Positions 3,501 through 46,532 of a DNA stretch of 64,000 nt are shown piece after piece. The notes beneath the pieces are model-generated. The model was given only the letters and a program-made list of their open reading frames with translations. It did no database searches and was not told where the DNA came from. Source of the DNA: Rhea pennata (lineage: Eukaryota > Chordata > Aves > Rheiformes > Rheidae); the NCBI RefSeq assembly GCF_028389875.1, contig NC_084679.1, positions 62,001 to 126,000 of the forward strand, in the 5' to 3' direction. Position 1 is the first letter of the stretch. Every line of letters starts with the position of its first letter. The position numbers were made by a program, and so were the translations under genes.

Positions 3501-3968
3501 AGGGTTCGTGGGGAGTCTGGGGAGGCCACGAGTCAGCTGTGGGGCACACAGAAGGCTGAAACTGTAGTCCAGAGTGCACTAGAGCAGTGCTAAGGGGTCT
3601 GGAGGGCCAACAGAGGTGTGCAGATGCAAAATAAAAGGCCAAAGGAGGTTTCTAAAGCAGAGCAGCGGGCTGCTGAAGGGACTGGAGCACCGATCGGAGG
3701 GCTCCAGGGCAGGAAGATGGTGTCGTGGGGGATTCTGAGGGCACTCCAAGAGTGCTTCAGGGTGCAGAAGGCGAGAAGAGAGCTCTGGAGCAGAAGAAAG
3801 GCTGGAAGAGTAGTCCAGAGTGCACTGGGGAGAGCCCAAGGTGTGCAGAGGGCCCCCAAAAGACTCTTGGGAACAAGGTAGGAATCCGGACGGGTTCTGA
3901 GAAGACTGGCTGGTTCTGAAGGGGTCCGCAAAGGCAGAAGCCTGCTCTCGGGCCGCCATTCCATCCAA
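584..3968. repeat. Macrosatellite block M-S-S-M
   Basis: Four units with landmark spacings of 1,051, 640, 643 and 1,051 bp. M units contain the extra 411-bp module (AGAGCAGCAGGCTGCTACAGG) that S units lack. The same order, again followed by an L unit, recurs at 16,178-21,313. Confidence 0.9.
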
Positions 3969-23416: not shown

Positions 23417-25169
23417 AAGGGGTGTCCAGAGAGCCCAGGAGGAGTCGCTGGGGCCCTCGGGGCTCTCTAGGGTGCTAAAGCTGAAAGAGTAATCCCGAGT
23501 GCACTAGGGGGTTTCTGAGGGGACTCCAAGGGGCAAAGATGACTGTGGGGAAGAAGGAAGAGAGCTGGAGGCATTCTGAGGAGACTGGAGGGTTTGTGGG
23601 GAGTCTGAGGGGGCCAGAAGACAGCTGTGGGGCACATGGAAGGCTGCTAGGGTAGTGCAGAGTGCACTAGAGAGCTGCTAAGGGGTCTGGAGGGACAACA
23701 GAGGTCAGCAGATGGAAAATAGAAGGCTAAACCAGAGCAGCAGGCTACTGCAGGGGCCAGAGCAGCAACTTAGGGCTGCAGGGCAAGAAGAAGGGCTCCT
23801 GGGGGATTCTAAGGGGGCATGAGGGAGGCTAATGGGTCTAGAGGGCACCAGGACAAACCTCTGGGGCAGCAGGAAAGCTGAAAGAGTAGTCCTGGTGCTC
23901 TGGAGGGTTTCTGAGGGGACTCCTGGAGGCAAAGATGACTGTGGGGAAGAAGGAAGATAGCTGGAGGCATTCTGAGGAGACTAGAGGGTTTCTGAGGGAG
24001 CTGGGGAGGCCAGAAGATAGCTCTGGGGCACACAGAAAGCTGCTAGGGTAGTGCAGAGTGCTCGAGAGGGGTGCTAAGGTGTCTGGAGGGACAACACAGG
24101 TCAGCAAATGGAAAATAGAAGGCCAAAGGGACAGGCCAAAGCAGAGCAGCGGGCCGCTGAAGGGGCTAGAGCGCCAACAGAGGGCCCCAGGGCAAGAAGA
24201 GGAGTTCTGAGGGAATTCTGAGGGGCCTACAGGAGGCCTAATGGGTCTAGAGAGCCAGAAGGAAAGCTGAAAGAGTAGTCCCGAGTGCACTAGAGGGTTT
24301 CTGAGGTGAATCTTGGAGGCAAAGACAACTCTGGCACACGGAAGGCTGCTAGGGTAGTGCAGAGTGCACTAGAGTGGTGCTAAGGGTTCTGGAGGGCAAA
24401 CACAGGCCAGTGGATGGGAAATAGAAGGCCAAAGGGGCAGGCCAAAACAGAGCAGCGGGCCGCTGAAGTGGCTGGAGTGCCAACAGAAGGCTCCAGGACA
24501 GGAAGAAGGGTCTTGGGGATTCTGAGGGGACAAGAGGGGGCCTAATGGGTCCAGAGGGCACCAGGACAAACCTCTGGGGCAGCAGGAAAGCTGAAAGAGT
24601 AATCCCAAGTGCACTAGAGGGTTTCTGAGGGGACTCCAAGGGGCAAAGATGACTGTGGGGGAGAAAGAAGAGAGCTGGAGGCATTCTGAGGAGACTGGAG
24701 GGTTCGTGGGGAGTCTGGGGAGGCCACGAGACAGCTCTGGGACACACAGAAGGCTGAAACAGCAGTCCAGAGTGCACTAGAGCAGTGCTAAGGGGTCTGG
24801 AGGGCCAACAGAGGTCTGAGTGTAGAAAATAAATGGCCAAAAGAGGTTGCTAAAGGGCAGCAGCAGCAGGCTGCTGAAGGGACTGGAGCACGAACCAGGG
24901 GGGCCCAAGGCCAGAAGACGACCTCCAGTGGGATTCTGAGCGCACTCCAGGAGTGCTTCGGGGTGCAGAAGGCGAGGAGAGAGCTCTGGGGCAGAAGAAA
25001 GGCTGGAAGAGTAGTCCAGAGTGCACTGGGGAGAGTCCAAGGTGTGCAGAGGGCCCCCAAAAGACTCTTGGGAACAAGGTAGGAATCCGAACGGGTTCTG
25101 AGAAGACTGGGTGGTTCTGAAGGGGTCCGCAAAGGCAGAAGCCTGCTCTCGGGCCGCCATTCCATCCAA
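23417..25169. repeat. L unit (1,753 bp)
   Basis: Single L unit between M units. It shares the CCCAAGTGCACTAG change (about 24,604) with the L units at 19,561 and 26,222, which sets these three apart from the six-copy run. Confidence 0.9.
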
Positions 25170-26221
25170 AAGGGGTGTCCAGAGAGCCCAGGAGGGGTCC
25201 TCGGGGCTCTAGAGGGCCAGGAGAAGACTCTGGGGCGCTGTGGAGGTCAAAAGAGGGGTGCGGAGCAGAGCAGAGGGTCACAGAGAGGGCTGGAGGACCA
25301 AAGGAGTCCTCCGGGGCAGAACGAAAGCCTGCGGAGGGGCTCTGAGGGGGGAGTCGAGGGCTGCTAAAGAGGCTGACGGACTAGAAGACAGCTGTGGGGC
25401 ACAAGGAAGGCTGCGAGGTTAGTGCAGAGCGCACGAGAGAGGTGCTAAGGGGTCTAGAGGGATAACAGAGGTCAGCAGATGGAAAACAGAAGGCTAAACC
25501 AGAGCAGCAGGCTGCTACAGGGGCCAGAGCAGCAACTGAGGGCTGCAGGGCAAGAAGAAGGGCTCCTGGGGGATTCTAAGCGGGCAAGAGGGAGGCTAAT
25601 GGGTCTAGAGGGCACCAGGACAAACCTCTGGGGCAGCAGGAAAGCTGAAAGAGTAATCCCGAGTGCACTAGAGGGTTTCTGAGGGGACTCCAAGGGGCAA
25701 AGATGACTGTGGGGAAGAAGGAAGAGAGCTGGAGGCATTCTGAGGAGACTGGAGGGTTCGTGGGGAGTCTGGGGAGGCCACGAGACAGCTCTGGGACACA
25801 CAGAAGGCTGAAACAGCAGTCCAGAGTGCACTAGAGCAGTGCTAAGGGGTCTGGAGGGCCAACAGAGGTCTGAGTGTAGAAAATAAATGGCCAAAAGAGG
25901 TTGCTAAAGGGCAGCAGCAGCAGGCTGCTGAAGGGACTGGAGCACGAACCAGGGGGGCCCAAGGCCAGAAGACGACCTCCAGTGGGATTCTGAGCGCACT
26001 CCAGGAGTGCTTCGGGGTGCAGAAGGCGAGGAGAGAGCTCTGGGGCAGAAGAAAGGCTGGAAGAGTAGTCCAGAGTGCACTGGGGAGAGCCCAAGGTGCC
26101 CAAGGTGTTCCCAAGACTCTTGGGAACAAGGTAGGAATCCGGACGGGTTCTGAGAAGACTGGGTGGTTCTGAAGGGGTCCGCAAAGGCAGAAGCCTGCTC
26201 TCGGGCCGCCATTCCATCCAA
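25170..26221. repeat. M unit with variant end
   Basis: 1,052-bp unit that again ends with the GTGCCCAAGGTGTTCCC variant (about 26,095) just before an L unit. Confidence 0.9.
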
Positions 26222-27974
26222 AAGGGGTGTCCAGAGAGCCCAGGAGGAGTCGCTGGGGCCCTCGGGGCTCTCTAGGGTGCTAAAGCTGAAAGAGTAATCC
26301 CGAGTGCACTAGGGGGTTTCTGAGGGGACTCCAAGGGGCAAAGATGACTGTGGGGAAGAAGGAAGAGAGCTGGAGGCATTCTGAGGAGACTGGAGGGTTT
26401 GTGGGGAGTCTGAGGGGGCCAGAAGACAGCTGTGGGGCACATGGAAGGCTGCTAGGGTAGTGCAGAGTGCACTAGAGAGCTGCTAAGGGGTCTGGAGGGA
26501 CAACAGAGGTCAGCAGATGGAAAATAGAAGGCTAAACCAGAGCAGCAGGCTACTGCAGGGGCCAGAGCAGCAACTTAGGGCTGCAGGGCAAGAAGAAGGG
26601 CTCCTTGGGAATTCTAAGGGGGCATGAGGGAGGCTAATGGGTCTAGAGGGCACCAGGACAAACCTCTGGGGCAGCAGGAAAGCTGAAAGAGTAGTCCTGG
26701 TGCTCTGGAGGGTTTCTGAGGGGACTCCTGGAGGCAAAGATGACTGTGGGGAAGAAGGAAGATAGCTGGAGGCATTCTGAGGAGACTAGAGGGTTTCTGA
26801 GGGAGCTGGGGAGGCCAGAAGATAGCTCTGGGGCACACAGAAAGCTGCTAGGGTAGTGCAGAGTGCTCGAGAGGGGTGCTAAGGTGTCTGGAGGGACAAC
26901 ACAGGTCAGCAAATGGAAAATAGAAGGCCAAAGGGACAGGCCAAAGCAGAGCAGCGGGCCGCTGAAGGGGCTAGAGCGCCAACAGAGGGCCCCAGGGCAA
27001 GAAGAGGAGTTCTGAGGGAATTCTGAGGGGCCTACAGGAGGCCTAATGGGTCTAGAGAGCCAGAAGGAAAGCTGAAAGAGTAGTCCCGAGTGCACTAGAG
27101 GGTTTCTGAGGTGAATCTTGGAGGCAAAGACAACTCTGGCACACGGAAGGCTGCTAGGGTAGTGCAGAGTGCACTAGAGTGGTGCTAAGGGTTCTGGAGG
27201 GCAAACACAGGCCAGTGGATGGGAAATAGAAGGCCAAAGGGGCAGGCCAAAACAGAGCAGCGGGCCGCTGAAGTGGCTGGAGTGCCAACAGAAGGCTCCA
27301 GGACAGGAAGAAGGGTCTTGGGGATTCTGAGGGGACAAGAGGGGGCCTAATGGGTCCAGAGGGCACCAGGACAAACCTCTGGGGCAGCAGGAAAGCTGAA
27401 AGAGTAATCCCAAGTGCACTAGAGGGTTTCTGAGGGGACTCCAAGGGGCAAAGATGACTGTGGGGGAGAAAGAAGAGAGCTGGAGGCATTCTGAGGAGAC
27501 TGGAGGGTTCGTGGGGAGTCTGGGGAGGCCACGAGACAGCTCTGGGACACACAGAAGGCTGAAACAGCAGTCCAGAGTGCACTAGAGCAGTGCTAAGGGG
27601 TCTGGAGGGCCAACAGAGGTCTGAGTGTAGAAAATAAATGGCCAAAAGAGGTTGCTAAAGGGCAGCAGCAGCAGGCTGCTGAAGGGACTGGAGCACGAAC
27701 CAGGGGGGCCCAAGGCCAGAAGACGACCTCCAGTGGGATTCTGAGCGCACTCCAGGAGTGCTTCAGGGTGCAGAAGGCGAGAAGAGAGCTCTGGGGCAGA
27801 AGAAAGGCTGGAAGAGTAGTCCAGAGTGCACTGGGGAGAGCCCAAGGTGTGCAGAGGGCCCCCAAAAGACTCTTGGGAACAAGGTAGGAATCCGGACGGG
27901 TTCTGAGAAGACTGGGTGGTTCTGAAGGGGTCCGCAAAGGCAGAAGCCTGCTCTCGGGCCACCATTCCATCCAA
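26222..27974. repeat. Last regular L unit
   Basis: Final 1,753-bp unit. Its landmark reads GCCACCATTCC, the same G-to-A change seen only at the end of the unit finishing at 14,486. In both cases the following sequence is the CCCAGGAGGGGTCCTCGG form. Confidence 0.9.
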
Positions 27975-30900
27975 AAGGGGTGTCCAGAGAGCCCAGGAGG
28001 GGTCCTCGGGGCTCTAGAGGGCCAGGAGAAGACTCTGGCGCACCATGCAGGTCAAAAGAGGGGTGCGGAGCATAGCAAAGGGTCACAGAGAGGACTGGAG
28101 GACCAAAGGAGTGCTCCGGGGCAGAATGAAGGCCTGTGGAGGGGCTCTGAGGGAAGTCGAGGGCTGCTAAAGAGGCTGACGGACTAGAAGACAGCTGTGG
28201 GGCACAAGGAAGGCTGCGAGGTTAGTGCAGAGTGCTCGAGAGAGGTGCTAAGGGGTCTAGAGGGATAACAGAGGTCAGCAGACGGAAAACAGAAGGCTAA
28301 ACCAGAGCAGCAGGCTGCTACAGGGGCCAGAGCAGCAACTGAGGGCTGCAGGGCAAGAAGAAGGGCTCCTGGGGGATTCTAAGCGGGCAAGAGGCTAATG
28401 CCTCTAGAAGGCATCAGGACAAACCCCTGGGGCAGAAGGAAAGCTGAAAGAGTAGTCCCGAGTGCTCTGGAGGGTTTCTGAGGGGACTCCTGGAGGCAAA
28501 GATGACTGTGGGGAAGAAGGAAGAGAGCTGGAGGCATTCTGAGGAGACTGGAGGATTCGTGGGGAGTCTGGGGAGGCCATGAGACAGCTCTGGGACACAC
28601 AGAAGGCTGAAGGGGAAGTCCAGAGTGCACTAGAGCAGTGGAGCTAGGGGTTCTGGAGGGCAAACACAGGTCAGTGGATGGAAAATAGAAGGCCAAAGGG
28701 GCAGGCCAAAACAGAGCAGCAGGCCGCTGAAGCGGCTGGAGTGCCAACAGAAGGCTCCAGGACAGGAAGAAGGGTCTTGGGGATTCTGAGGGGACAAGAG
28801 GGGGCCTAATGGGTCCAGAGGGCACCAGGACAAACTTCTGGAGCAGAAGGAAAGCTGAAAGAGTAGTCCGGAGTTCCTTAGAGGGCTTCTAATGGGGACT
28901 CCTAGAGCCAAAGATGACCCTGGAGAAGAAGGAAGATAGCTGGAGGTTTCTGAGGAGACTAGAGGGTTCCTAAGGGAGCTGGGGAGGCCACGAGACAGCT
29001 GTGGGGCACACAGAAGGCTGCAAGGGTAGTCCAGAGTGCACTAGAGCGCTGCTAAGGGTTCTGGAGGGCCAACAGAGGTGTGCAGATGCGAAATAAAAGG
29101 CCAAAGGAGGTCTCTAAAGCAGAGCAGCAGGCTTCTGAAGGGACTTGAGCACCAATCAGAGGGCTCGAGGGCAGGAAGAAGGATCCCCCTCATGCAGTGT
29201 TCTGAGGGGACTCCAAGTGTGCTCAATGGTATAGAAGGTGAGAAGAGAGCTCTGGGGCAGAAGAAAGGCTGGAAGAGTAGTCCAGAGTGCACTAGGGTGA
29301 TCCTAAGGTGTGCATAAGGCCCCCAAAATACTCTTGGAACTAGAAGACAGCTGTAGGGCACAAAGAAAAGCAGTAGTCCAGAGTGCACTAGAGGGGTGCT
29401 AAGAGGTCTAGATGGCCAAAAAAAATTCTCTGAGAAACAAGAAAGATATCTGGAGATTTTCTTTGGAGATTCAATGGCTCCTAAGGGGGCTGGAGTGGCA
29501 GAAGAGAGCTCTGGGAAGCAAGAAATACTGAGTCATCCAGAGCACTGTGCAGCGTTGCTAAGGTGTCTGGGGGCCAACAGAGGTCTGCAGGTGAAAGATG
29601 TAATGTCAAAAGAAGAGGCCAAAGCAGAAGAGAAAGCTGTTAAAGGGGCTCCAGGGCAGGAAGGGTAGTTCCAGAGGGATTCTGAGGTCACTACAGCTGT
29701 CCTAATTGGGCTGGAAGACCTGAAGGCAGTTCTGGGGCACAAAGAAGCCTAAAAGAGTAGTCAAGAGTGCACTAGAGGGGTGCAATAGTGCCTACATGGT
29801 GCAAAAATCTCTAGGGAACAAGCAACAAATCTGGGGGAATTCTGATGAGACTAGATGATGCCTGATAGGGTTGGGGGATCACAGGACAGCTCTGGAGCAC
29901 AACAAGCACCCAGGAGGCGTTCTGAGTAGACCAGAGGACTCTTAAGGGGACTAGGTGGCCAAGAAATAAAAAATGGTTAACAAGACAGAAGTCAGGAGGT
30001 GCTCTAAGGGAACAGGAGGGGATGCTATGAGATGCAGATAGCCAACAGAGGGCGCCAGGGCACAAAGGCCTCAGGAGGGCTTCTGAGCAGACTACATGGG
30101 TCCGAAAGGGTCTAGAGGACCAAGACAGAGCTCTATGGCACAAAGTCGACTTGGATAGTCATCCAGAGTGCACTAGAGAGGTGCTAAGGAGTCTAGAGGG
30201 TGAGAAAAATGACTCTGGGGAAGAAGGAAGATAGCTGGAGGCATTCTGAGGAGGCTAGAGGGTTCCTAAGGAGGCTGGGGAGCCCACAAGACAGCTCTGG
30301 GGCACACAGAAGGCTGCAAGGGTAGTACAGAGTGCACAAGAGGGGTGCCAAGGGGTCTAGAGGGTCAACAGAGGTCGGGGGGGTCAAAACAGGAGGCCAA
30401 AACATAGCAGAGGGCCGCTAAAGCAGCTGGTGCACTAACAGAGGGCTCCAGGGCAGCTTGAAAGGGTTTCTGAGGCAACTACAAGAGTGTTAAGGGGTCT
30501 AGAGAGACATAAAAGAGATCTGGGGCACAGGGAAGCCTAAAAGAATAGTTAAGAGCACACTAGAGGGGTACAAAGTGGTCGACTTGGCCAAAAAAGTAAC
30601 TATAGAGAAGAAGCAAGAAATCTAGGGAGGTTCAGAGGCGACTAGATGATTCCTAATGGAGCTGGGGAGTGGGCACAGTACAGTTCTGGGGCACAACAAG
30701 CACTCAGAAGGTGTTCTGAGCAGACCAGAGGGCTCCTAAGGGAACCTGGAGGCCAAAAAAATACAAACTGAGTAACAAGACAGGATTTGAAGGATCCTAT
30801 GGGATGTGGATGGCCCAAAAGTCTTCAGGGTATAACAAAGGTCTTAGGAGGGCCTCTGAGCAGACAGGATGAGTCTTAAGTGGACTTCAGGCCAGAAGAC

Positions 30901-33510
30901 ATCCTTGGGGCATGACAAAGTGCTTTGGAAGGGTTCTGAGGGGACTAGAAGGGTGCTAAGGGGACTAGAGGGCCAACAGAGGTCTGCAGGTGGAAAAGAA
31001 AAGGCCAAATAAAAGCACAAAGCATAGTAGAGGGCTGCCGAAGGGACTGAAGCACCAACAGAGGTCTCCAGAGGAGGAAGAGGAGCTCTGGAGGGATTCT
31101 AAGGGGACTACAGGGGTCATAAGGGCTCTAGAGGGCCAAGACAGAGCTGTAGGGCACAAAGATTCTAGGAAGAGTCATCTAGAGTGCAATAGAGGGGTGC
31201 TTAGAGTTCTACCTGACCAAAAAAACAAAAACAAACAAAAAAAATACTCTGGGGAAGAAGGAAGAAATATGGGGTGATTCTGAGGAGACTGGACAGTTTC
31301 TAAGGAGCCCATGGTCCAAAAGATAACTCTGGAGTACAACAAGTACTTAGATCGTGTTCTGAGCTGAGCAGAGCAGAGGGCTCCTAAGAGGACTAGGTGG
31401 CCAAAAAATAAAAACGGGTTACCAAGACAGAAGTCAGTGCTCTGAGGGGCAGAAGAGGGTCTTATGGGAGATGTGGATGGCCAAAAGAGGACTCCAGGGC
31501 ACAATAAAAGCCTCAGGAGGTCTTCTGAGTGGACTAGATAGGTCCTAAGGGGACACAAGGGCCAGAAGACAGCTCTAGTGCACAAAGAGCACAGAAAGAG
31601 TCATCCAGAGCACACTAGAGAGGTGCTAAGGGGTTTAGAGGGTCAAAAAAATGACTCGGGAACAAGGAAGATAGCTGGAGGGGTTCTGAGGAGACTAGGG
31701 AGCCAGAAGACAGCTCTGGGGCACAACAAAGGTCTCGAGGGATTTGGAGGTATCTAAGGGGTCCTAATGGTTCTAGAGAGCCCAAATAGGCCTCTGGGGC
31801 ACAAGGAAGGCCAAAAGAAGGGTCCAGGGTTCACTAGAGGTATCCTAAGAAGTTCAGGCGACCAAGAGAAGCCTCTAGGGAACAACGGTCCCAAAGGGTC
31901 CTAAGGCAAAACAGAGGTCTTAAGAGAGCTAGCAGGCCAAAAGAGGGCTCTAGCCACAATTTTGGCCACAAGAGGCATCTAGAGTGGACTAGGGGACTTG
32001 TAAGGGGCCTAGGAGGCCAAAAAGAAAAGAAAAGGAGCTATAAGGCACAATGAAGGCAAAAGGAGGGGTCCTGATAGAAGTAGAGGGACCAACAAAGGGC
32101 TTCTGCCTAATGAAGGCCAAAAGAGAGGTATTGAGAGAATTAGATAGGTCCTACAAGAGGTGTTGGACCAAAAGAGGGCTCTAGAGGCACTAGGAAAGCT
32201 ACAGAAGGGCTTCCGAGAGTACTAGAGGGATCCTAAGGATTCTACATGCCCAAGAGAGGCTCTGGTGCACAGTGAAGGCCAATGGAGGACTTCTGAGAGG
32301 ATTGGAGCAGTCCAAGAGAACTAGACATCACAGGCCTGTAGGGCACAATGAAGACTTTGGGAGCAGTTTTAAGTTCATTTTATTGGAAAACAGAAGAGTC
32401 TTGAGAAGATCAGAGGGCACGAATTTGGTTCTAGGATGGCTTTTCTCTGGTACACACTAAAGGCTCGTGGCAGGGGTGGAGGGGGGTCGTTAGGGAGCCA
32501 AAGGACCAAAGGAAGCATTCTGTAAGGATTAGAAGGCAAATGTGGGAGTCCTGAGGGGAAGAGAGAGCACATAGTGGGCACCAGGGCACACCAAAATGGA
32601 AAAGGATGGGTCCTGATAGGATTAGGGTGCAGAGGCCTGGAGCACAACAGGAGAACACAGGGGTTCTGAAGGGAGCAGAGAGCAATTGAGAGGATGTGAG
32701 GCACACTGAAAGGAAATGGATATGGTGTGTGCTAAGAGGCAAACAAAGAGATCTGAGAGAAACAGAGAACTTCCAAGTAGGAGCTGAGGTAGGATTTGAG
32801 GGCATTTCGGGGGTGCTGGAGCACAACAAAGGCCCCACCATTTTGAGACTACATGCCACATGGATCAATTCTGACCAGACTAGAGGACATATGGAGTGTT
32901 CTGAGGGACAACAAAGGAAGACAGAGGAGTCTTGAAGGGATTAGAAAGAAAGGGGTCCTGATGGGATAGAGGGCACACAAAATGGTCATAGGGATAGGTC
33001 GTAGAGAGAACTCTGTAGTCAATGAAAAAGGAGAACTCTAGGGCACACTGAAAGGCTGCAATGAACACATAGGATTTTGGGGTGTCCCCAATGCAAAACC
33101 AGGTGTCCCAGGGGGAGCGTGTAGCAATCGGAGGAGTTCTGATGGGACTAAAGGGCAGTGAGATGGGCCCTAAGAGGCTCAGAGAGCAGAGGCATCCTGA
33201 GAGGACTAGAGGGAAAAACAAAGGCTCTGGGATGCACCAATAGCAAACAGAAAGGTTTTGAGGGGACTAAAGGAAAAAGAAAGAGGACTTAATAGGACAA
33301 GAGGACAAACATAGCAGTCTTGATGCTACTAGAAGGCAAATAGCAGAGTAATCTTGCAGGAACTAGAAAGAAACAAAGAATTTTGAAGGGACAAGAGAAC
33401 TAATGGAGTGCCTTGGAGCACACCTAAAAGCAAACAGATAGGTGCTGAGGGATGTAGGGAGTAAATGGATGAGTCCTGAGGAGACAAGGGGGAAAACCTG
33501 AAGATTCTGG
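27975..33510. repeat. Degenerate right edge of the macrosatellite
   Basis: From about 28,040 the unit sequence starts to accumulate substitutions and small indels. By 29,100 only the short phrases survive (GAGTGCACTAGAGGGGTGC, GCTCTGGGGCACA, GTCTAGAGGGCCAA), and by 32,500 little beyond purine richness and CTAGAGGGC-like words is left. Regular S/M/L spacing is lost. No gene is seen. The open frames in this stretch (for example 31,175-31,585 minus) follow composition. Confidence 0.85.
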
Positions 33511-34782
33511 GGGCATTAACTCATCTGCTCTAATCTTCCTACTTGAACGCTGCCTCTTACCTCTGAGAAGCTGGCTTTTGCTTTCATTCCACAGGCAGCT
33601 GTCAGCCGTTGGGCAGTCTTGGCAGGCAAGTTGGGGATCGCTGCCCAAGTAGTTGTGACCTGCAATACCACGTGTTGAGAACAGTTCTCAGGAAATCATG
33701 CAGATTCATAACCTGAAGGATAAGAAACAAGTATCTCTTAAAGATAGTTTTTATTTCATCATAGGAACAATATTTTCCCTCTTTTCTCCACTGTACTGCC
33801 TCTAACAACACACCTTGTCATCATCATTTTCTGCTGCTACTTCCACTGCTCTCAGTTGCCCCTGCATTTTAGTCCTCTAAAGTGGCTGTTTCTCATCCAC
33901 ATGTATTTTCATGTCTGGTCACTGCTGATTCCCCCTCCCATTTGTCCTATAGCAAGCAGCTAAGACACCCTGGCCTAGCTCTTAGCTGCACATCCCTTCT
34001 AGTCTGGCCAGCAGCTCTGATAGAGCAGAGGGCAACAAGAGTGGATCTAAATGTAGTAGACCTGGGCACCGAGCAACACAGAAGCAGCAGCAAAGCATCC
34101 AAGAGATCACATCTTTCTAAAGAAAATACATATAGCTCCAAGTGACTGAGGATTCCCTTTATCTGTACCCAGGGCTCCTGCAGGCTCTTTCCACACAGTT
34201 AAAAGTACCTGAATGTGACTGTTTCAGGGCCTCTCAGGCTGTTTAAGGGTCCTTGGACAGAAACAGCACTGATCACATGTCCCTGAGGATTTTGCCTTGT
34301 GCTTCATAACAGGACAGCTCTGCACCAAGCCTTCCCAGCACCACTGCTGTCTAAGAGGCCCCAATCCTGAGCAAAGCTATGACTACCAAGAGCCCACACC
34401 ACACCTTGCACTCCTGCTTGCCTCCCCCATTGCCAAGAGGGAAGGCCTCAGCCCCTGGGACAACTTGCCTGCTTGCACCAGAGATGGAAAACACTTTCTG
34501 CCCTGCACCAGGGAAAAATAGGGAAATTCCACTGGCCCCAATGACCTACAGGGACTCTTGTATGAGTAGCACTTATCCAGTAAGGAGCAGACACAGCAGG
34601 CTGCTGCTGCAGGGCTGAGAAGGCAGAGGCACCTGGAGCTACAGCTCCTGATTGCCACCAAGCACAATGTGGCTGGCTGGTAGGAGCCCTACTGACAGAG
34701 AACTGCACCTTCCAGTACCTCGAGAGGCACAACATGATCCCCCAGAAGCCCAGCATGGGAATGTTGTCCCAAAATTGGGTTC
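33511..34782. other. Single-copy-looking sequence at the array edge, no clear gene
   Basis: The purine bias stops at about 33,510. I see no recognisable protein. A possible minus-strand exon of about 100 bp (33,563-33,661) is flanked by TATTGCAG and AG|GTAAGAGG. The opposite strand also has an acceptor-like TTCATTCCACAG here, so the strand is unsure. The stretch 34,280-34,782 may be internal or leader sequence of the LTR element to its right, because it lies downstream of that LTR on the minus strand. Confidence 0.4.
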
Positions 34783-35177
34783 TGTTACACAGTGTGCAAG
34801 GAACCAATAGACACACAGGATTGAGATATTTGTTTATTTCCTTTCTCTGCAGAGATAGGTGCTAAGTGGTAGATCCACAAAGGTAGCACCCCTTCTCCTT
34901 TCCTCACTCTTTATTTATATACACGCTTTTCAGGGAATACTTTACATAACTTTTGCTATTGGTTACAATTTTATCACATCATCCATTAACTCCATGATTG
35001 CACTTTAACGTTCCTGTTAATTAGCATAAGAAGTTGAGAAGGTGGTAACATGATTAACATGTCATTCTCATGTCATTATTGCTTTAGGGGAGCGTAATTT
35101 AATATGTTAATAAGCCTTAATGAACTTGTAGATTACTCTGAGTTATTCCGCTGTTTTTGTTTTGCCAACTCTTCACA
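34783..35177 (-). mobile_element. Candidate LTR of an endogenous retroelement
   Basis: Read on the minus strand, a 395-bp segment begins TGTGAAGAG and ends TGTGTAACA, giving TGT...ACA termini. In the expected order it has a CCAAT box (complement of 34,958-34,962), a TATA-type box TATAAATA (34,912-34,919) and an AATAAA signal (34,833-34,838). This layout fits U3-R-U5 of an LTR. The sequence just past the 3' end (complement of about 34,768-34,782) could be a primer-binding region, but I cannot assign its tRNA. No target-site duplication is visible at the two ends, so it may be a 5' LTR with some leader rather than a solo LTR. No gag, pol or env frame is seen. Confidence 0.5.
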
Positions 35178-35317
35178 TTGAACAAAGCGTTGTGATTTAC
35201 TTGATGTTATTTGGCTGGAACTGGTTGTCCTTCACATTACTGTGTTATGACAGCCTCTCTCCCTTGTTCTTAAGTCTTGTCAACTATTTGCAGGGTTTCC
35301 ACAGCAGCATTCCAACC

Positions 35318-36590
35318 AGAGGACTACAATTCCAAGCATGCACTGCAGACAAAAGTGACTTTCCAGAAGCCCGGTACTGGAAGACTAAACTCCTGGCATG
35401 TGCAGCATATGAAGATGGCCTTCCTGAAGCCAGGTGCCGGAAGACTACAGTTCCTGGCATGCGTGGCAGGCTAAAATGGCCTCCAGGAAATCCTTGCAGG
35501 AAGACTACATCTCCCGGCATGAAGCGCAAAACAACATGGGCGACCGGAAGACTAGACCACCAGGCATCAGCCGCAGACTAAAATGGCCTCCCGGAAGCCC
35601 GGTGCCGGAAGCCTACTGCTCCCGGCATGCCGCGCAAAACCAACATGGCCTCCCGGAAGCCTGGCACTGGAAGCCTACCGCTCCCGGCATGCCGCGCGAA
35701 AAAACAACATGGCCTTCCGGAAGCCCGGTGCCGGAAGACTACTGCTCCAGGCATGCCGCGCAAAAAAAAAAATGGCCTCCCGGAAGCCCGGTGCCGGAAG
35801 ACTACTGCTCCCGGCATGCCGCGCAAAAAAAAAAAAAAAAAAAAAAGCCTCCCGGAAGCCCGGTGCCGGAAGACTACTGCTCCCGGCATGCCGCGCAAAA
35901 ACATCATGGCCTCCCGGAAGCCCGGTGCCGGAAGACTACTGCTCCAGGCATGCCGCGCGAAAACAACATGGCCTCCCGGAAGCCCGGTGCCGGAAGACTA
36001 CCGCTCCCGGCATGCCGCGCAAAAACATCATGGCCTCCCGGAAGCCCGGTGCCGGAAGACTACCGCTCCCGGCATGCCGCGCAAAAACAACATGGCCTCC
36101 CGGAAGCCCGGTGCCGGAAGACTACTGCTCCCGGCATGCCGCGCAAAAAAAAAATGGCCTCCCGGAAGCCCGGTGCCGGAAGACTACTGCTCCCGGCATG
36201 CCGCGCGAAAACAACATGGCCTCCCGGAAGCCCGGTGCCGGAAGACTACTGCTCCAGGCATGCCGCGCGAAAACAACATGGCCTCCCGGAAGCCCGGTGC
36301 CGGAAGACTACCGCTCCCGGCATGCCGCGCAAAAACATCATGGCCTCCCGGAAGCCCGGTGCCGGAAGACTACCGCTCCCGGCATGCCGCGCGAAAACAA
36401 CATGGCCTCCCGGAAGCCCGGTGCCGGAAGACTACCGCTCCCGGCATGCCGCGCAAAAACATCATGGCCTCCCGGAAGCCCGGTGCCGGAAGACTACCGC
36501 TCCCGGCATGCCGCGCAAAAACAACATGGCCTCCCGGAAGCCCGGTGCCGGAAGCCTACTGCTCCCGGCATGCCGGGAGGGCGACACAAC
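35318..36590 (+). repeat. 62-bp minisatellite made of ETS, ZNF143/THAP11-like and YY1-like motifs
   Basis: About 16 well-matched units (35,581-36,575), spaced about 62 bp, follow about five degenerate ones (35,318-35,580). Each unit carries CCGGAAG twice (ETS/GABPA core), then ACTACYGCTCCCGGCATGC (compare the ZNF143/THAP11 element ACTACAATTCCCAGCATGC), then GCGCAAAAACAACATGGCC (YY1-like AACATGGC). The first unit at 35,323-35,341 reads ACTACAATTCCAAGCATGC, one base from the canonical element. Units differ mainly by TGCTCC/CGCTCC, CCAGG/CCCGG and the length of the A tract; one unit has about 24 A at 35,825-35,846. Because 62 is not a multiple of 3 and the unit has no stop in any plus frame, three overlapping frames stay open for about 390-410 codons. 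These are not taken as genes. Confidence 0.93.
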
Positions 36591-37090
36591 CTGCTGACGT
36601 TTCACCCTGCAGCCATTGCGTTCTCGCCCGCCCCTCTCTCCTCCCCACTCCCCCCCGCACCCTCTGGAGCCGAAAACCGCCGCACAGCCCGGACCGCAGC
36701 CCCGCAATCGGGCCCGGGGCTCCCCGACTACCTCGCAACCGGCCCCAGGTCAGCTCCGACACTACCCCTGCCACGCGACCCTCCCCAGGGCTTCCCCTAG
36801 GAAACCTCCTGCCCCTCCGCAACACAGCCCGATCTGACCCCAGACCCACCTCGCACTGATCTGACTGTACACTAAACCCCACCACAGCCCCGGCGCAAAC
36901 CCTTCCTCTTCCCTCTCCAGCCCCAGCAGACCGCCTTCCTCTCCACCCTCCATGGTCCTGACACACCGCTCTTCCCCACCATGTAATCACTCCCCACTGT
37001 CCTGATTCATGGCTGCCCCTGGCCCCAGTGCAGTTTTCCCCAGCATGCTCCGCCTCGGTTGTGCTGCATTGCTGGGGACACTCCCATCCA
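36540..37090. promoter_or_regulatory. CpG island at the 3' end of the motif array
   Basis: C-rich, CpG-containing sequence begins at the last array unit and fades by about 37,100. The first bases after the array (about 36,575-36,640) resemble the sequence after the isolated unit at 44,113, with GTTTCACCCTGCAGCCATTGCG matching a GTTTGACCCTACGGCGATTCCG-like stretch in broken form. A degenerate ZNF143-like element (CAGTTTTCCCCAGCATGC, about 37,031-37,048) follows. A promoter is likely, but the transcript it drives is not identifiable. No TATA box is seen. Confidence 0.55.
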
Positions 37091-37420
37091 CTAAGACCTC
37101 CAGCACTCACAGGACCCATACGCTGGACCTCCCCAGCCCTGCTCACCTCCTGCGTGGTGCAGCCAATGTTCGGGTCTCAGCAGGTGGTGCATGCCAGCAG
37201 CTCCATTGTCTTGGACCAACCCCAACATGAGCCTCTTCCAAATGCAAACCCTGGTCCCAGCATGTGCCCACTTCCTGCCCTTGAAATCAATCCAACAGGC
37301 CCCACCTGGGACTTCTCCCAGCCACAGGGCCCACAGCTGCACCCTATCAGGGACAGCTGGGTCTGCCAAGGCAGTAGAGGCATCCCCACTATTGAAAGCA
37401 GCTTCCTGAAAGCTCAAGGC
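37091..37420. other. No recognised feature
   Basis: Mixed-composition sequence between the CpG island and a purine-rich block. Open frames on both strands have no family signature that I recognise. A donor-like AGGAG|GTGAGC lies on the minus strand near 37,146. Confidence 0.4.
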
Positions 37421-37765
37421 AGCAAAGGGTCATTCAGGGGACAAGGGAACAAATCGAGAGCTGTGCGTGCAACGAAAGTTAAAAAATAATAATAAAAAGG
37501 GGGGGCAATGAAAGAGTCAACAGTGCAACTCTGGGGGCACCAAAAGGCAAAGGGAGAGCCTTGGGGCTCACTCAGAAGCTCTCAGAAAACTCTGGGACAG
37601 AGGAGAAATCTAAACAGAGAACATTGTGGCATTCTGCAAAGCATACACAGGGAACTGGGGCACATCAGTAGCACGGAGGCAACCCAAAATGTGAATTGAA
37701 GGCTCCTGAGGACATCAGAGGATAAACACAGGGCTCTGGAAAAAAAAAGGGGGGGGGGGGCTTTG
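37421..37765. repeat. Degenerate purine-rich block resembling the macrosatellite
   Basis: It contains phrases typical of the array's decayed edge (CTCTGGGGGCACCAAAAGG, GGCTCCTGAGGACATCAGAGG, ACTGGGGCACA) with no regular spacing. It ends in an A8-G12-like tract at 37,741-37,762. It is probably a detached relic of the macrosatellite, about 4 kb beyond the array's edge. Confidence 0.45.
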
Positions 37766-38204
37766 GGGCACACAAAAGGGGCCATACGGCACGTTGCAGG
37801 GCTCAGTGCAGCTGATGAGACAGTGCCTGCAGGCTCCTCCTGTCTCAGAGAAACTCTAGCTACCAGCTCCAGGCAGAGAGGCCCCGGCCCCAGACACACA
37901 AAGGATGTTGTAAAGTGCTGAAAACAAATCCGTAATAAGTCTAGACACCTGAGAAACAGCCCTGGAGGGGCCCTGGCTGCACCCACTATGACGGGAGTCA
38001 CCCCCAAGAGTCCCGAGGGTCCAGGCCACGCAAGGGCAACTCCCCACAGCCCCGGGAAGAGCACCGAGTTCCCTGGGAACCACAGGCACTCCAAAGTGCA
38101 AGGGACTTGGGCACCAGCTCCGGGCCCCAGGCACAAAGTGTAACCTCCTCCCCTGGGCATCACCTTCAGGCAAGGGCACATCCGGAACCACAGACACAAC
38201 CACA

Positions 38205-38226
38205 AAGAATAAAGCAGCTGTTTATT
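38205..38226 (-). terminator. Candidate poly(A) site for a minus-strand transcript
   Basis: On the minus strand AATAAA (complement of 38,221-38,226) is followed by a GT-rich stretch (GTGGTTGTGTCTGTGG, complement of about 38,186-38,201), the usual downstream element. A plus-strand AATAAA also sits at 38,208-38,213, so the site may serve both strands. Confidence 0.35.
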
Positions 38227-40897
38227 GTTTTACTGCACACAAACACCACCTGGGAGCGAGTCTGCCACAGAGCTCAGTGCCAGCACACTTCCCCTTACCC
38301 TGTGACACCTGAAGTCATCGTCACGCCAATGTCCATCCGTCAGGGAAGGGTCAACTCCCACCGCAGCCCCTGATGCAGCAGGTGTCTGTGTAGCCGACGG
38401 CCTGCCCTTTCTGCTTTTCCCTTCAGGGATAGGATTCAGCTCTGAGAATTAGAGAGGACAATGCCTGAGCTCGCCTGTCTGTGCTTCCGCTCTGCCCCAG
38501 ACTACAGCCCTGCATGACACTCGCACGGCTCTCGGCTTGCCCGACGCACATCGCCAGTGTCGGTGCGGTGGGCCTGCACCCTATTAAATCCAGACCTCAG
38601 CCCAGCGCAGAGAGCTGAACGCTAGTACAGGGGAAGATGACAAACCCTGAAGGAGGGTTGGCAGCCCGCTGCTTAGGCTTCAGGCCTTACAGTTTATTAT
38701 CTACAGATTTTTCCCTTATCACGGAGCCCTAAGCTCCTGAACCGGAAGTGACAAACTGCACATCTTGGCACCCAAATGGTTCCTGAGGCTGAAAAGCCTA
38801 GGGATGAGGTTGGATTTTAAATCCTGCACCCTAGTCGCTAAATGAGCGACCTGTAAACTCTGACTGATACAGACTGAGCCCCAGAAAATACAGTGACGAA
38901 CCATAACCCCTGCCTGAGACACCCTCAACAACAAACTACATAAACCTCAAGTGGAAAAGTCGAAACCCTTAGCTTTAAGCAAGAAACATCAAAGCACCCA
39001 CAGGCTTGAGAACAGTAAGAAGAAGCCAAAGAGTTTTGCCCACGGCTTAGGAAGTTCCCCCTTCATTTAGAAGGGCAGCAGAACAGGAAGACACGCACCA
39101 CAATCCTGCTACAGTTGCTGTTCAGAGGCTTGGGTTGAGCCACCATTCAAATGTGAACACGTGCACGAATCATGCCACTGGATTGCACTAGGCTGCACTA
39201 CCACCAAACGCACCTGAAACATCGCAAGTGCTAATTCACCTCCCTTACAGACCGTTAAAATTTTTGCTCCTCTCAGCTCTGTAGGCAACCATCCACAGCC
39301 AGTGACACCTGTAACCACTAAGGGCAAAACCACTGCCACCTCCCAGCCCTGCTCACATACAACACAGCCCCAGGACTTAGCTGCGTCCACGCTGCAAGTC
39401 AGGGCTCGCCTTCCGCGGCCAGACAGATCTCTGCAGAAAGCTCCCAGCGATGACAACGCTCTTTTGATGGCCAGACTAGGCTTCCACACCTGCAAAGAGG
39501 CCGGAACAGCTACCAGGAGGCCAGGCAACTGCACAGCCCTCCTAGAGCTATTCCCTAGTCCACAATTACGATTGACTGTAACCGACCAATAACCCCTGTA
39601 AGGAAAGAAGGCTCAGAGTAGATGAACGCAGGCAAGATGCCCCTGAAGCTCGGGAACAGTGTAAGTGCATACGTGGCTCAGCCCAACAGCAAGTATAAAG
39701 CCTAAACAACTAACAAAGGAATTTTTGAAGGGGGCAATGGGCTGGAGCTGGCTTCAACCCACACATTCCTTCCCGGAGCCTGGGGACGCCCAGCGTTGTG
39801 ACAGTGAGCGTATTATAGAGACCAGTAAGAACAATTACACTCGTACTGTGTCCTCAGTATATTACTGTATCACTCCTTTAAATCAAAAATTCTGCATAAC
39901 ATCACATACCTTTAAATCAAGCCTTTATATTAAACGTTGCACTCTCTGTATATGTGGAATATCTAAAAGAACCTGGTCAGAGAGTACTAGACAGACACCA
40001 ACCTCCTACGCAAATCAAACCACTAAGGGCCCTGGGAGATTCTCGTTTTAGAGCTTTTTCCCTACCAAAGCTTTAACGATGGTTCCCTAACCCGGGCAAA
40101 TGCAGTTCCCCCCCACCCCACCCCAAGCACTGTAACAGTTTTTATCCTGGCGTCCCAAGTTGCCATTACGACACGAAGCAGCAAAGCAAGGCAAAAGGCA
40201 GGTGGGATCCCAGCTTACTCATTTTGCCACAAAAATTCTTATTTTAAGGCCTCACTGCTTCTTCCAGGTAAATAGAGCAAAATACAGCTGCAAGCAGGCA
40301 GCTGAGGCTTCACACAGACCTGGTGGCCCTGTTAGCAACAGCAATGCTATAGTGACCGGGCTACCCGTCGCTATTCCCTCACTTCCTTTCCCCGTCTGTG
40401 AATCATGGCTTATTACTCGCAAGTTCTGTAAGGATGAGGCCACCTTCCTACAGCTGAAAGCTCCTTGTTGGGACTGGCAGCAGAACTTTTCCATTGGCAT
40501 TTGGATCCTCCTGGCTGCTCTCAACATGTGATACCTTACAGAGGTCTGAGAGTGGTAGCCTGTACTTCTTCACGGCAGCGTGCAGTCGTTCCCCGATGTT
40601 ATGAACGCCTAGGATCAACACAGTTTATAAATACTACCGCTATGGGGTGTAAAGACACGCTCAAACGTCTGCAACCAAAGAAAACGTCTCCGGGTCTGAC
40701 GGGACAATCCATACGCATCGGCACCTAGAGCTCAAGAGGGGGCTAGCACCCCCTCTTGGGTGACGTTCTTCTAGCAGGCTGTCTATCTGAACTCCCCCGT
40801 CTTGCCTAAGAGTCCCCCCGAGACACCATAACTTTGTCAGCCAGCACTTGCTGATGGAGGCATAGTAAAATCCATGACCCTGTAAAAGCATAGGGCA

Positions 40898-40980
40898 AAG
40901 CAAAACAAAAAAAAAAAAAAACCCCAAAACCAAAAAAAAAAAAAACCCACAAACCACAAAAAAGACACAAAAAAACAAAG
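40898..40980. repeat. A-rich low-complexity tract
   Basis: Runs of A interrupted by CCCC, CC and CAC. Low-complexity sequence only, though A-rich tails of this kind often mark old retrocopies. Confidence 0.9.
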
Positions 40981-41768
40981 CTCCGCAGAAAATCGTAAGA
41001 ATCTAAAGCTGTTTTTAAGCACAAAAGCAGCTCTAACACACACACACAAGCAAGGTAGACAGGGAATACGCAGGCCACAAATACCACTTCCCCCACTCCT
41101 GTTTCGGAAGGTGTGAGGACACTCGGGCGTGCTGTGAAAGGGAAGTTAGACTAAGTAGCCGCTAGACAGGAATCTGTCGGAACCCTTCTGCGTCCACATT
41201 TCTGGCGCAACTGTGCTCTGCCCCTCAGTCAGACGCGCAAGAAGATTCACTGCTTGCGACGCTTGCACAGAACCCCCTCCGCTCGTTAAGATGAGTGCCC
41301 ACCGAGCCACTTGGAGAGATGATCCCCTGCTATCTAGTCGTATGCCTGGCATTAATACTACAGAGGGACCTGAGCGTGTTGGATTGCCTCTGTCCTATCA
41401 AAGGTAGAAGTCTCAAAGACAGTTACAGCCCAGATTGCTGCTAAATGGTCTTTCTCACACTCAGAGAATTTGCGTTCTGGCCCCAAAGGGGATGTGAGAA
41501 TGGTGCTACTGGCACCTGCTTTCCCTTACTGCTGTTTTCTAATGGCACTGCTCCCACAGAGTCAGCAGATGTGGAAAGCATTACTGAAAAAGGCTTGCCT
41601 TTTCCTGGGAGTTTGAGGGCAGGAAGTGTTAGTTAATTCCACGAGGCTTTAACATTTCCTCTATCTACTGTCTTCCTCTTTCCCCAAATACCACTGCCCA
41701 GTAACTAACTGGGGGTTGCTCTAACTGAGCCCTCTGAAAACAATCTCTTAATTTTACAGTTCACATGC

Positions 41769-41812
41769 TTTCTCCCTCTCTCTCTCTCTCTCTTCCTCCC
41801 TCTCCTTCTTCA
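41769..41812. repeat. CT-rich microsatellite
   Basis: About nine perfect CT dinucleotides in a longer pyrimidine tract. Confidence 0.9.
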
Positions 41813-42736
41813 GTAACTCTGACTACTTGACTATCATTCCCCTAAGATAATTATTTGCTGCCTTGCAGCTTTTAAAATAGGATCTCTCGTAGACACAAAG
41901 TCACGCGTACAGAAATACACGTAGGTGGCATACTCGCCTGTAAGGCGGACAAACCTTCCGTACACTTCGGTGATCTATTATTCCGATCGCTAGTAATGGT
42001 GAGCCTTCCTAATCAGGAAGGATGGGCTTTCCTTTGCGGGAGATGGAGACAGCTCTCAGCTGGTTCCATGTGGTTTTCTCACTTCAGCTTGCTTATGTTT
42101 TTCTGGTCTCTTCAACTTCAGCCATGGCAATTCGTCTGAAAGAGTAAGTATTGCATCCTTCCCCTTCTATCTACACATGTCCGATAACAAAACAAAACAG
42201 AAACAGCCAAAGCAAAACTAAAGCAGATACAGTTAATGATATCCACAGGGCAGGAACGGGTTGCTTAGCCCTCAATGCTCCCTCCGAGAGGCCGAAATAA
42301 CAAACAGTTATTACCAAGTCAGCTTACTTGCCCATGGCAGAACACCTCCTTCTGCAGCAGTTGCTGGGGATATCAGAGGTCCACTGCGTTTTTCCATTCT
42401 TGTTTCATTCACTTTATCCCTTAGGTATTAATCACCAAAAGACTGCTTGTCCAGCTTTCCTCTCCATCAGCATTTGCTATCGATGGTTCCAGCTCAGTAA
42501 CAAAGAGAAAGCTAGCATTTTACTCTCAATGAAAGGCAACGAAAGCATTTATATATGTTCTTTTTCTCTTTCCCGTGTTCTTTTCCCTTTGCTTTTTTTT
42601 TTTCCTCCCCTCCTTTCTTAAAGAAAAGGTCTCAATACAGCACTTTACATCATACAATACATGGCAAACTGGAAACATTGCGTACAGCAATTACAGCTAG
42701 GTTATTAGATAGGCAGGCATATCACCTAATACTTAC

Positions 42737-42940
42737 CTACGCCATCTTCCGTGAAACCTTGTTTTTATCCTGCTTCAGTATTATCCTGCTTTTTCAGTAT
42801 TATCGTTACTGTTCAGGGTGTCTGGGGACGTCTTTCTTCTATCTCTCTGCTCGCTTGCTCACTTGCTCACCTGGCCACGCTTCTCAAGGGAACAACTCGG
42901 GGCTGCGCTAATCATACCTGACTCGCATTCTCCTTCAGCT
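42737..42940 (-). ncRNA. Candidate first exon of a minus-strand transcript
   Basis: On the minus strand, running out of the CpG island, there are two good 5' splice sites: GGCCAG|GTGAGC (exon end at 42,871) and GCGTAG|GTAAGT (exon end at 42,737). The second follows GGAAGATGGCG, an ETS/YY1-like initiator region common at housekeeping starts. The only ATG there is followed at once by a stop (ATGGCGTAG), so this would be non-coding or 5' untranslated. No downstream exon could be assigned. Confidence 0.35.
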
Positions 42941-44330
42941 GGTTTGCTCCAGAGGGTTCCACCTTCCCGGGACTCACCGGCGCTCCGGGCCACGCCTGCC
43001 GCAACAGGAGCTGACCTCCCGCCGACGCCGCAACCCTGCTCCAGGGCCCGCCCGCGGCCCCGCTCCTCCAGGCTCCGTCCACAGGGGCGAGCGCACGCTC
43101 CGGCCCGCGCTGGGCAGGAGCCGGGGACCTAAAGGCGACACACGACGAAGGCAAAGTCAGACCCGCGCTGCGGCACACGCGGCGCAGCGCAGACCCCGCC
43201 CGGCACTCCCGGCGGGGCCGAGCCGGGCCCCAGCCCCCGCCGCCCCGAGCCCCGCACCGCCGCCTCCGCGCAGCGACGGTCTCAGCGGGCAGGCGGCAGC
43301 CCGATGCCCGCGGCCACCCGAAGCGACGCGCTCGCCTCATGGCCGCCCCCCGATCCTCCACTTCAGCCGGCCTCGGCCCGTACTCGCCGCCGCAGGAAAG
43401 CTCCGGCCTTGCTCGCCGCCATGCTGCTTCCCAGGGCCGCGCGTGCGCCGTGCGTGAACGGGGCGCGGCCGCAACGGGAGGGGCGGGGGTAGGCGAGACC
43501 CGGGGAAGAACCCTCGCGTACCCACGTTGCAGCGCTGTTCGTGGGCGGCTCCCGCGGGCGAACCGCAGTCCGCCACGGTCCCGCGGGGCTCTCCCTGCGG
43601 CTGCTCTGCGCGTGCCCAAGAGCGGGAGGCGATCAGCGAGCAGCCTCTGGGACTGCCCCGGAGCGAGAGTCCCGCAGAGCAGCTCCGAGACAGCACTGCC
43701 CGTCCCCGCGACACCGGGAGGCAGCGATAAGGAAGAGCTCCCTGCGCTACCGCCCCGTGAGCGCCGGGAAGGGGCGAGGAGCAGGGCCCGTGCGCTTTCC
43801 CGTGATCAAAACACCGGAGAGGAGCGGCGAACATGGCGAGCGGCACTACGCGCGTGTGCGACGGCTGCCGGCCGTATACTCCGCCCGCGGCGGCAGTACT
43901 GGTTTGTGGACACGCGAGGGCAGCAGTGACGGCGGCGGAGCGCAGTGCGCATGCACGAGCCGTGGTCTGGTGCAGTACCGCCTGTTCAACATGCGGTGGC
44001 AAAAACGAGCACGGCGGAACACCGTGCGCATGCGCTTACTGGGTCGGTGGCAGATGACCGGCATGGCCGACCGGAAGCCCAGTGCCGGAAGACTACCTCT
44101 CCCGGCATGCCGCGGGGGTGCCCCGCCCCGTCGTTCAAGTTTGACCCTACGGCGATTCCGTTCTGTCCCGTTCCCCAGTACCGTCCGGGGCTTCTCCCGC
44201 GATCGGCTGCGGGACTGTTCCGACTCTGCCTCTCTTCCCCCACACCCCACTATCCGCAGAGCGTGGGAGGGGAAGGGCTAGGAGGTGGCGAGGCGGGAAA
44301 TGACACTCTCGCGTATTCACAGCCTGGTGC
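42940..44330. promoter_or_regulatory. CpG island, probably bidirectional promoter
   Basis: Very high G+C with dense CpG, no TATA box, and NRF1-type sites TGCGCATGCA (43,946-43,955) and TGCGCATGCG (44,025-44,034). Splice donors lie on its minus-strand side. Long open frames occur on both strands (for example minus 42,912-43,619 and plus 43,339-43,929), but stop-poor frames are expected in such sequence and none shows a known domain. An ATGG in good context at about 43,833 plus (MASGTTRVCDGC...) and one at about 43,421 minus (MAASKAGAF...) could be starts of unrecognised proteins. I cannot support either. Confidence 0.7.
44060..44175 (+). promoter_or_regulatory. Isolated copy of the ETS/ZNF143 unit with related flank
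   Basis: CCGGAAGCCCAGTGCCGGAAG is followed by ACTACCTCTCCCGGCATGC, the same order and spacing as the units at 35.6-36.6 kb, then GCGGGGGTGC and a GACCCTAC...GATTCCGTTCT stretch that parallels the sequence after the last array unit. This marks the two sites as duplicates of one ancestral promoter segment. Here the unit is present once. Confidence 0.75.
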
Positions 44331-45129: not shown

Positions 45130-45890
45130 GCCCCTTCGATGTCTTCATAAGGGCAGCGGCGAGCCCGCCGATGGCAGTGCGCATGCGTGGGAGCCCGGGC
45201 TGCAGTATTGACTTGCGCTCACACGGGGGCAGCGGCGGGGGCAGCGGCGAGCCCGCCGACAGCACTGCGCATGCGTGGGAGCCCGGGCTGCAGTATTGAA
45301 TTGCGCACACACGGGGGCAGGGGCGGGCCCGCCGACGGCACTGCGCATGCGTGGGAGCGCCGGCTGGCGCGCTGGATTGCATTCACACGTGGGCAGTTCA
45401 CCGCAGTGGCAAAGTCGGCCCAAAGCGGCAGCGAGCTGCTGAAACACGCCTGACTGTCCTTAAGACAGAGATCACCAGTGGGAAGGCCTGTCTATGGTGC
45501 AGGACCCAGGGCTCCGGTGAGGGTCAGGGAGCCCGGCTGGCTTTAGCGGCAATGCCAGAGAACACGGGAAGCTCGAGGGTGAAAACGGCCTGTCGGACGC
45601 AGTGGGCAGTGTGCACGGGGTATTGCGCATGCGCGAGCCTCCTGGCCGTGTGCCGGCTGGAGCACAAATCGGCGCGGTTGGCGGGTCCAGGCACTGCGCG
45701 TGCGTTGGGCCGCGAGCCGAGCTCGCGCCGGCGGCGTGCGCACGCCGTGGGCTGGTCTCGCTGCTGTGTGGTGGTGGGCGGGCGGCAACGCTGGCTGCGA
45801 GGACGTAGGCGGCCACGCTCCCTCCCAGGGCTGCCAGAGGGCTCCCTCCCAGAGTCTGCAGTACTGCTCCATGGTCACCCGAAGGCAGCG
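45130..45890. promoter_or_regulatory. CpG island with clustered NRF1 sites
   Basis: TGCGCATGCG occurs at 45,178, 45,266, 45,342 and 45,624, with TGCGCGTGCG at 45,695. A 5' splice site AAGGCAGCG|GTAAGC sits at the plus-strand edge (exon end about 45,892), preceded by an ATGG (MVTRRQR...), so a plus-strand first exon is possible. No protein is recognised. Confidence 0.6.
45151..45378 (+). repeat. NRF1-site minisatellite, three units of about 76-88 bp
   Basis: Units starting near 45,151, 45,240 and 45,317 share GGCAGCGGCGAGCCCGCCGA, TGCGCATGCGTGGGAG and GGGCTGCAGTATTGA-like segments. The first spacing is 88 bp (with about 12 extra bases, AGCGGCGGGGGC-like) and the second is 76 bp. Each unit carries one near-perfect NRF1 palindrome. 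Confidence 0.88.
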
Positions 45891-46462: not shown

Positions 46463-46532
46463 GATTGTTCTGACACAGCTGCAAAACAAATTATAAAGGT
46501 TACTTCTGCAGCAAAGGAATAAACAGCCAAAC

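Follow-up and report, generated by a model that had tools for sequence, protein, structure and literature searches.

A CpG-rich tandem array with ETS and ZNF143-type sites, found at many chromosome ends of Rhea pennata, is a candidate subtelomeric promoter module

What might an array of housekeeping-promoter motifs, repeated in tandem over 1.3 kb, be doing beside a satellite? The array lies in a 64,000-nucleotide stretch of Rhea pennata DNA (C17:62001-126000, hereafter the window). When it was analysed by wraparound alignment, 21 units of approximately 62 bp were found on the plus strand at 35316-36575; unit 1 was partial, units 2-5 were degenerate, and units 6-21 (n = 16) differed from the consensus by 0-5 mismatches. 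Independently, TRF reported 15.8 copies of 62 bp at 35583-36575 with a score of 1624. The position, and the count of about 21 units with 16 close copies given in the preliminary description, were thus borne out. The array and its inner flank were divided as follows.

35316..36575, plus strand: whole tandem array; order from telomere to centromere is YY1-like ATGGC, ETS, ETS, ZNF143/THAP11-like
35316..35582, plus strand: degenerate units 1-5 on the telomere side; CpG O/E 0.43
35583..36575, plus strand: homogenised units 6-21; CpG O/E 1.02
36576..36900, no strand: CpG-rich flank of 325 bp on the centromere side; CpG O/E 0.80; also present in the copies at other ends; its outward strand is G-rich

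The CpG O/E in three background stretches was 0.11, 0.16 and 0.23, so the surroundings of the array are CpG-poor, and the CpG island described earlier at the array was confirmed by the values of units 6-21 and of the next 325 bp. In units 1-5, 28 of 63 letters at CpG positions were off the consensus (11 of the deamination type and 17 others), compared to 34 of 202 elsewhere; this excess would be expected if the telomere-side units had lost protection from methylation. All three frames of the array are open, as expected for a stop-free unit whose length of 62 is not divisible by three, and a coding array was therefore rejected. It was also rejected as part of the 1753-bp satellite, to which its best match was 23 bp long (E 0.12).

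The motif content was examined against printed consensuses and shuffled sequence. The heptamer CCGGAAG was found 33 times in the array compared to 0.23 expected (300 dinucleotide shuffles of the array), and the ETS (GABP/ELK) consensus SCGGAAGY was found 18 times on its plus strand compared to 0.21 in shuffles. The Staf/ZNF143 (SBS) consensus, as printed (YWCCCRNMATSCMYYRCR; PMC5006282), occurred with up to two mismatches at 25 places in the window, where 100 shuffles gave 3.08 on average and never more than 8. Seventeen of these places were in the array, one in its flank, one at 44099 and six in the satellite; the array sites carried one mismatch in 13 cases and two in four, and none was perfect. 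In the same paper the THAP11 module is given as ACTAYR and the M4/THAP11 motif as ACTAYRNNNCCCR (PMC5006282). The latter had a single exact match in the array, and with position 6 left free there were 11; in the inner units the THAP11 half was one base off, ACTAYR failing at position 6. The ETS sites of the array are strong, as is its ZNF143-type site despite the want of a perfect match, but the THAP11 half did not reach its printed form. That description had also given every unit the full motif set. Two CCGGAAG copies, and likewise ATGGC, were indeed present in 15 of the 16 close units, but only 10 units carried the exact long ZNF143/THAP11 string ACTACYGCTCCCGGCATGC, and the exact AACATGGCC occurred 8 times. 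No NRF1 site was found in the array of the window.

Copies of the array were then sought in the whole genome (1,268,942,789 bases in 180 contigs) with two queries, the array itself and its last unit with flank, which gave 247 and 253 matches, with 40 candidates scored out of 150 and of 99, respectively; further copies may therefore lie in chromosome interiors. Matches were grouped by hand into clusters, each holding at least part of a unit. Among the matches listed there were at least 43 clusters at at least 33 contig ends, at distances of 1.7-98 kb from the end (median 22 kb, maximum 97.6 kb); on contigs longer than 3 Mb, at least 34 of the listed clusters were at at least 25 ends. One orientation relative to the end was shared by 42 of the 43 clusters listed (two-sided sign test, 1e-11). 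The array, first viewed as a lone oddity between satellite and gene, is therefore one member of a subtelomeric family. The single reversed cluster among the 43 listed, at C29:5365597, is perhaps a local inversion.

The window's own contig starts with 245 copies of CCCTAA in 1.5 kb, and the array therefore sits 97 kb from a telomere-bearing end. Telomere repeats were present at 7 of 16 sampled ends (the starts of C1, C11, C17 and C45 and the ends of C16, C22 and C46); three sampled ends read N (the starts of C9, C26 and C41), and six were without telomere repeats (the ends of C1, C2, C18, C25, C28 and C29). The distance from array to telomere tract was roughly 11-16 kb on the four ends measured (C1, C11, C45 and C16). 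On C1 and C25, a degenerate (CCCTAA)n stopped approximately 35 bp from the first unit.

Thirty-two loci were parsed. Counting units of 43 columns or more, each locus contained 0-25, some of them truncated where the locus ended. A unit spacing of 61 bp was the commonest, and 62 bp was found on C17, C1 (26 kb) and C25. Many ends carried the same degenerate units in the same order on the telomere side, followed by homogenised units. The smallest copy in the family was part of one unit, and the largest was estimated at 790 units; the latter was on C22, where the array extended from 9331572 to approximately 9379898 (approximately 48 kb; array sequence was found at 5 of 5 sampled inner points) and telomere-like repeats lay approximately 10 kb farther out. 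Mean unit divergence was 0.033 within copies and 0.067 between copies, and it was greater between than within in 116 of 153 copy pairs. Taken with multi-unit variant patterns repeated inside the C17 array and the differing unit counts, these values support the amplification by unequal exchange that had been suggested for the window.

Conservation of the motifs was compared in the modal units of 18 copies (the remaining 14 parsed loci had fewer than two close units and were dropped) and in the innermost units of all 32, two sets of counts that are not independent because copies share classes. In the modal units, two CCGGAAG were found in 18/18, ATGGC in 7/18 (the YY1 core was thus missing from 11) and the exact M4 motif in 0/18, and the Staf consensus was matched with up to one mismatch in 14/18 and up to two in 18/18. 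In the innermost units, two CCGGAAG were found in 24/32, at least one in 30/32 and ATGGC in 14/32, and a Staf site with up to two mismatches in only 7/32, so the ZNF143 site is often disrupted there. These findings show that ETS pairs are the constant part of the family and that the complete motif set, earlier treated as uniform, is a feature of the C17 copy and a few others.

The other parts of the window near the array were as follows.

1..33000, no strand: G-skewed satellite, telomere-side neighbour of the array; period of 1753 bp over 1-28000, then a diverged edge as far as approximately 33 kb
33592..35310, plus strand: linker from satellite to array; keeps acceptor-like splice sites where a Rhea pennata gene model has its boundaries
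37356..42785, no strand: macrorepeat copy body; 65-77% identical to C5 in blocks, with indels that do not preserve frame
43000..44320, no strand: second CpG island (module B); O/E 1.03; relatives of C5 NRF1 units at 43893-44035
44062..44170, plus strand: single array-type unit with shared downstream sequence; second subtelomeric family member
45151..45396, no strand: short tandem repeat; TRF periods 88 and 76; NRF1-type sites at 45179, 45267 and 45343

The window from 36.3 to 44.2 kb was collinear with an approximately 9-kb macrorepeat on C5 (L099, C5:62301-71500). In L099, positions 7558-8785 held 16 units in tandem, 76-80 bp long and all containing the NRF1 site TGCGCATGCGC, and RCGCANGCGY was found 22 times in 9.2 kb compared to 0.6 in simple shuffles; relatives of these NRF1 units were also found on C4, C6 and C61. 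Only 19 of the 79 indels between L099 and the window were multiples of three, and the macrorepeat body therefore looks non-coding. The lone unit at 44062-44114 continued as similarity to 44170 (75% over 109 bp), and the region 44000-44260 was itself a subtelomeric family, with at least 17 copies approximately 9 kb apart at 48-204 kb from the C5 start. Further copies, among the matches listed, were at the C5 end (at least five), the C6 start (at least three) and the ends of C13 and C61, and also near ends of C2, C9, C10, C20 and C25; all listed places shared one orientation. The repeat at 45151-45396 looks like a reduced form of the C5 macrorepeat's 16-site NRF1 array.

At the protein level, one relative was found with the array translation, and six at E ≤ 1 from 7991 scored candidates with a cleaner query. 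The only annotated relative was LOC134153044 (P0001), an uncharacterised Rhea pennata model that reads inward and maps in order on the plus strand to the satellite edge (where GC skew over 1-33000 was approximately 0.3 and the translation of the diverged edge resembles the first exon of P0001), the linker, the array and 38242-38487. From codon positions, its four units would be spaced 61, 61 and 62 bases. The window keeps CAG acceptors at two P0001 boundaries; no GT was found in the window at the expected donor, and the reading frame is not kept there, with stops and frame changes. No fetched locus was identical to P0001 (61% at best for the array), and orthology of the C17 array with the P0001 locus is not claimed because the family is multi-copy. 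Five further proteins from ENA, JGI and Logan (P0032-P0036), all gene-caller output, read the same unit strand as P0001. P0032 and P0033 aligned without gaps in 62-bp register over 6.7 and 5.4 units (70/139 and 51/112 identical, respectively), and shuffled scores were far below theirs. With units in tandem in P0001, P0032 and P0033, the tandem form is therefore not confined to the assembly of the window. P0001 belongs to a separately deposited Rhea pennata annotation.

The closest known systems with this combination of features are at human chromosome ends. Human TERRA promoters consist of CpG-rich repeats in tandem, with units of 61, 29 and 37 bp (PMC6897513). The 29-bp repeats have promoter activity, occur at around half of the chromosome ends and, in 20 subtelomeres, lie within the final 3 kb; when a repressor is targeted to them, TERRA from those ends falls (PMC8213692). 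Class two TERRA promoters lie approximately 5-10 kb away, NRF1 is reported to bind human TERRA promoters (PMC6468625), and NRF1 and CTCF both act on them (PMC6468625, PMC5727389). The bird family is like the human one in its CpG-rich tandem repeats with a unit of approximately 61 bp, its presence at many ends with more than one repeat type and variable copy number, and its location and polarity. For the macrorepeat form, though not for the array of the window, the tandem NRF1-type sites may be a further likeness; the 20 bases printed as the core of the human 29-bp repeat contain an exact NRF1 match. In contrast, the bird array seems to be farther from the telomere tract (roughly 11-16 kb on the four ends measured; on C17, 97 kb from the end), although degenerate telomere repeats adjoin two copies, and its 61/62-bp unit carries an ETS/ZNF143 code and no CTCF-like site. 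For the latter, no match with up to one mismatch to the consensus was found in the array or the 420-bp flank at the 32 loci, whereas CTCF sites are present in human TERRA promoters. The human 29-bp core was rejected as a homologue of the 62-mer (10 mismatches, shuffled mean 8.45). The array is therefore not assigned as a member of the TERRA promoters, from which it differs in CTCF sites and sequence and seems to differ in distance.

Other systems share single traits with the array. HCFC1-linked promoters with ZNF143, THAP11, YY1 and GABP were reportedly described by Michaud in 2013, and promoters of this type normally have few sites and belong to single-copy genes. The motif vocabulary of these CpG-island promoters, including the M4 and SBS motifs (PMC5006282), is the same as that of the array. 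The bird array differs in being amplified and subtelomeric, with a THAP11 half one base off and YY1 often lost. The spacer promoters and enhancer repeats of Xenopus rDNA are likewise tandem repeats that derive from a promoter and lie next to a repeat unit, but they form an RNA polymerase I system that is not subtelomeric. D4Z4-type macrosatellites are subtelomeric, multi-kilobase, GC-rich tandem units; the bird macrorepeat, unlike them, has no conserved reading frame. A literature search that covered ZNF143 together with tandem repeats or minisatellites gave nothing relevant, and on that scope novelty is provisional.

These comparisons suggest that, within a subtelomeric repeat family, the array may form the promoter-like module and be a possible counterpart of the human repeats from which telomere RNA starts. 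That it works like the human 61/29/37-bp TERRA promoters, as a subtelomeric CpG-rich promoter array with another factor code, is the best reading, to which we give roughly an even chance. ETS factors and ZNF143, with NRF1 as well on the macrorepeat, would keep the island open, and the candidate island would start non-coding transcription of the subtelomere, with outward to the telomere judged the most likely direction. Unequal exchange and gene conversion among chromosome ends would amplify and spread the units. The flank bears on the direction: in all 32 parsed copies the outward strand of the centromere-side flank was G-rich (skew 0.30 on average), and on the telomere side of the array outward-strand skew was positive in 23 of 29. 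In human TERRA promoters the RNA strand is G-rich downstream of the start (PMC5286223). The G-rich outward strand of the flank argues against transcription that starts in the array and runs inward. It fits outward transcription, but, since this flank lies on the centromere side of the units, only if the start were at the flank's inner edge.

The main rival is passive subtelomeric spread, in which an old housekeeping-type promoter was caught in a duplication, spread and homogenised by exchange and has no present role, its high CpG coming from youth and biased conversion. We regard this as unlikely, though less so than the other alternatives. The C22 array is far longer than a promoter needs, many copies are largely degenerate (14 of the 32 loci have fewer than two close units), the loss of the YY1 core from 11 and of the exact M4 motif from all of the 18 modal units points the same way, and one ATGTCC class on many ends suggests simple spread. 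It also counts against the promoter reading that repeat-borne motifs can lack occupancy, as ZFP143-CTCF motif pairs in SINE/B2 did in a 2025 study (PMC11687419). The paired ETS sites of all 18 modal units, retained in 24 of 32 innermost units with at least one in 30, argue against passive spread, as does the fixed orientation of 42 of the 43 listed clusters, although subtelomeric exchange alone can preserve orientation.

An inward promoter, reading from the array to the centromere for a subtelomeric non-coding or fast-evolving gene family, would account for the order in which P0001 maps and its two CAG boundaries, and for the shared unit strand of P0032-P0036, though these are gene-caller output. 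The broken P0001 frame and missing GT, the one minus-strand ORF tested beside the array, which gave no Pfam match, the low share of in-frame macrorepeat indels and a flank GC skew opposite to that of an inward array start make such a promoter improbable. Much less probable still is a boundary or insulator, or a sponge titrating ETS and ZNF143 factors; the array does lie between the satellite and other sequence, and one copy is estimated at 790 units, but no CTCF-like site with up to one mismatch was close by at the 32 loci, and in the 2025 study ZNF143 is reported to act without dependence on looping or CTCF (PMC11687419). Tandem arrays are easily misassembled, and the number of units may be off; with distinct unit variants at many ends and the relative in the separately deposited annotation, an assembly artefact is given next to no weight.

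If outward transcription from the array is true, it would provide a case outside mammals of a telomere RNA promoter built from repeats, one whose factor code can be read, and it would open the question of why unrelated genomes put tandem CpG-rich promoters at chromosome ends. A broader, more tentative proposal, which we hold to be somewhat doubtful, is that ends of the palaeognath bird type have their own telomere-directed promoters of tandem ETS/ZNF143 and NRF1 units, which would have arisen independently of the human repeats and converged with them in CpG-richness, unit length and NRF1 use. Even if the family is passive, a housekeeping-type promoter segment has become a subtelomeric repeat at dozens of ends and is a ready system in which to measure exchange between chromosome ends.

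No known RNA families or tRNAs were found in the window, and viral and GTDB contigs held no match to the array unit. The minus strand at 46133-46534 has a 133-codon open frame with no convincing Pfam match (best E 0.078). Beyond it, no link was seen between the array and a gene whose plus-strand exons begin at approximately 51 kb (51476-60309). These exons encode Somatomedin B (E 2.2e-07), AMOP (5e-29 and 5.3e-06) and VWD (1e-06) domains, an order that suggests what we presume is probably SUSD2.
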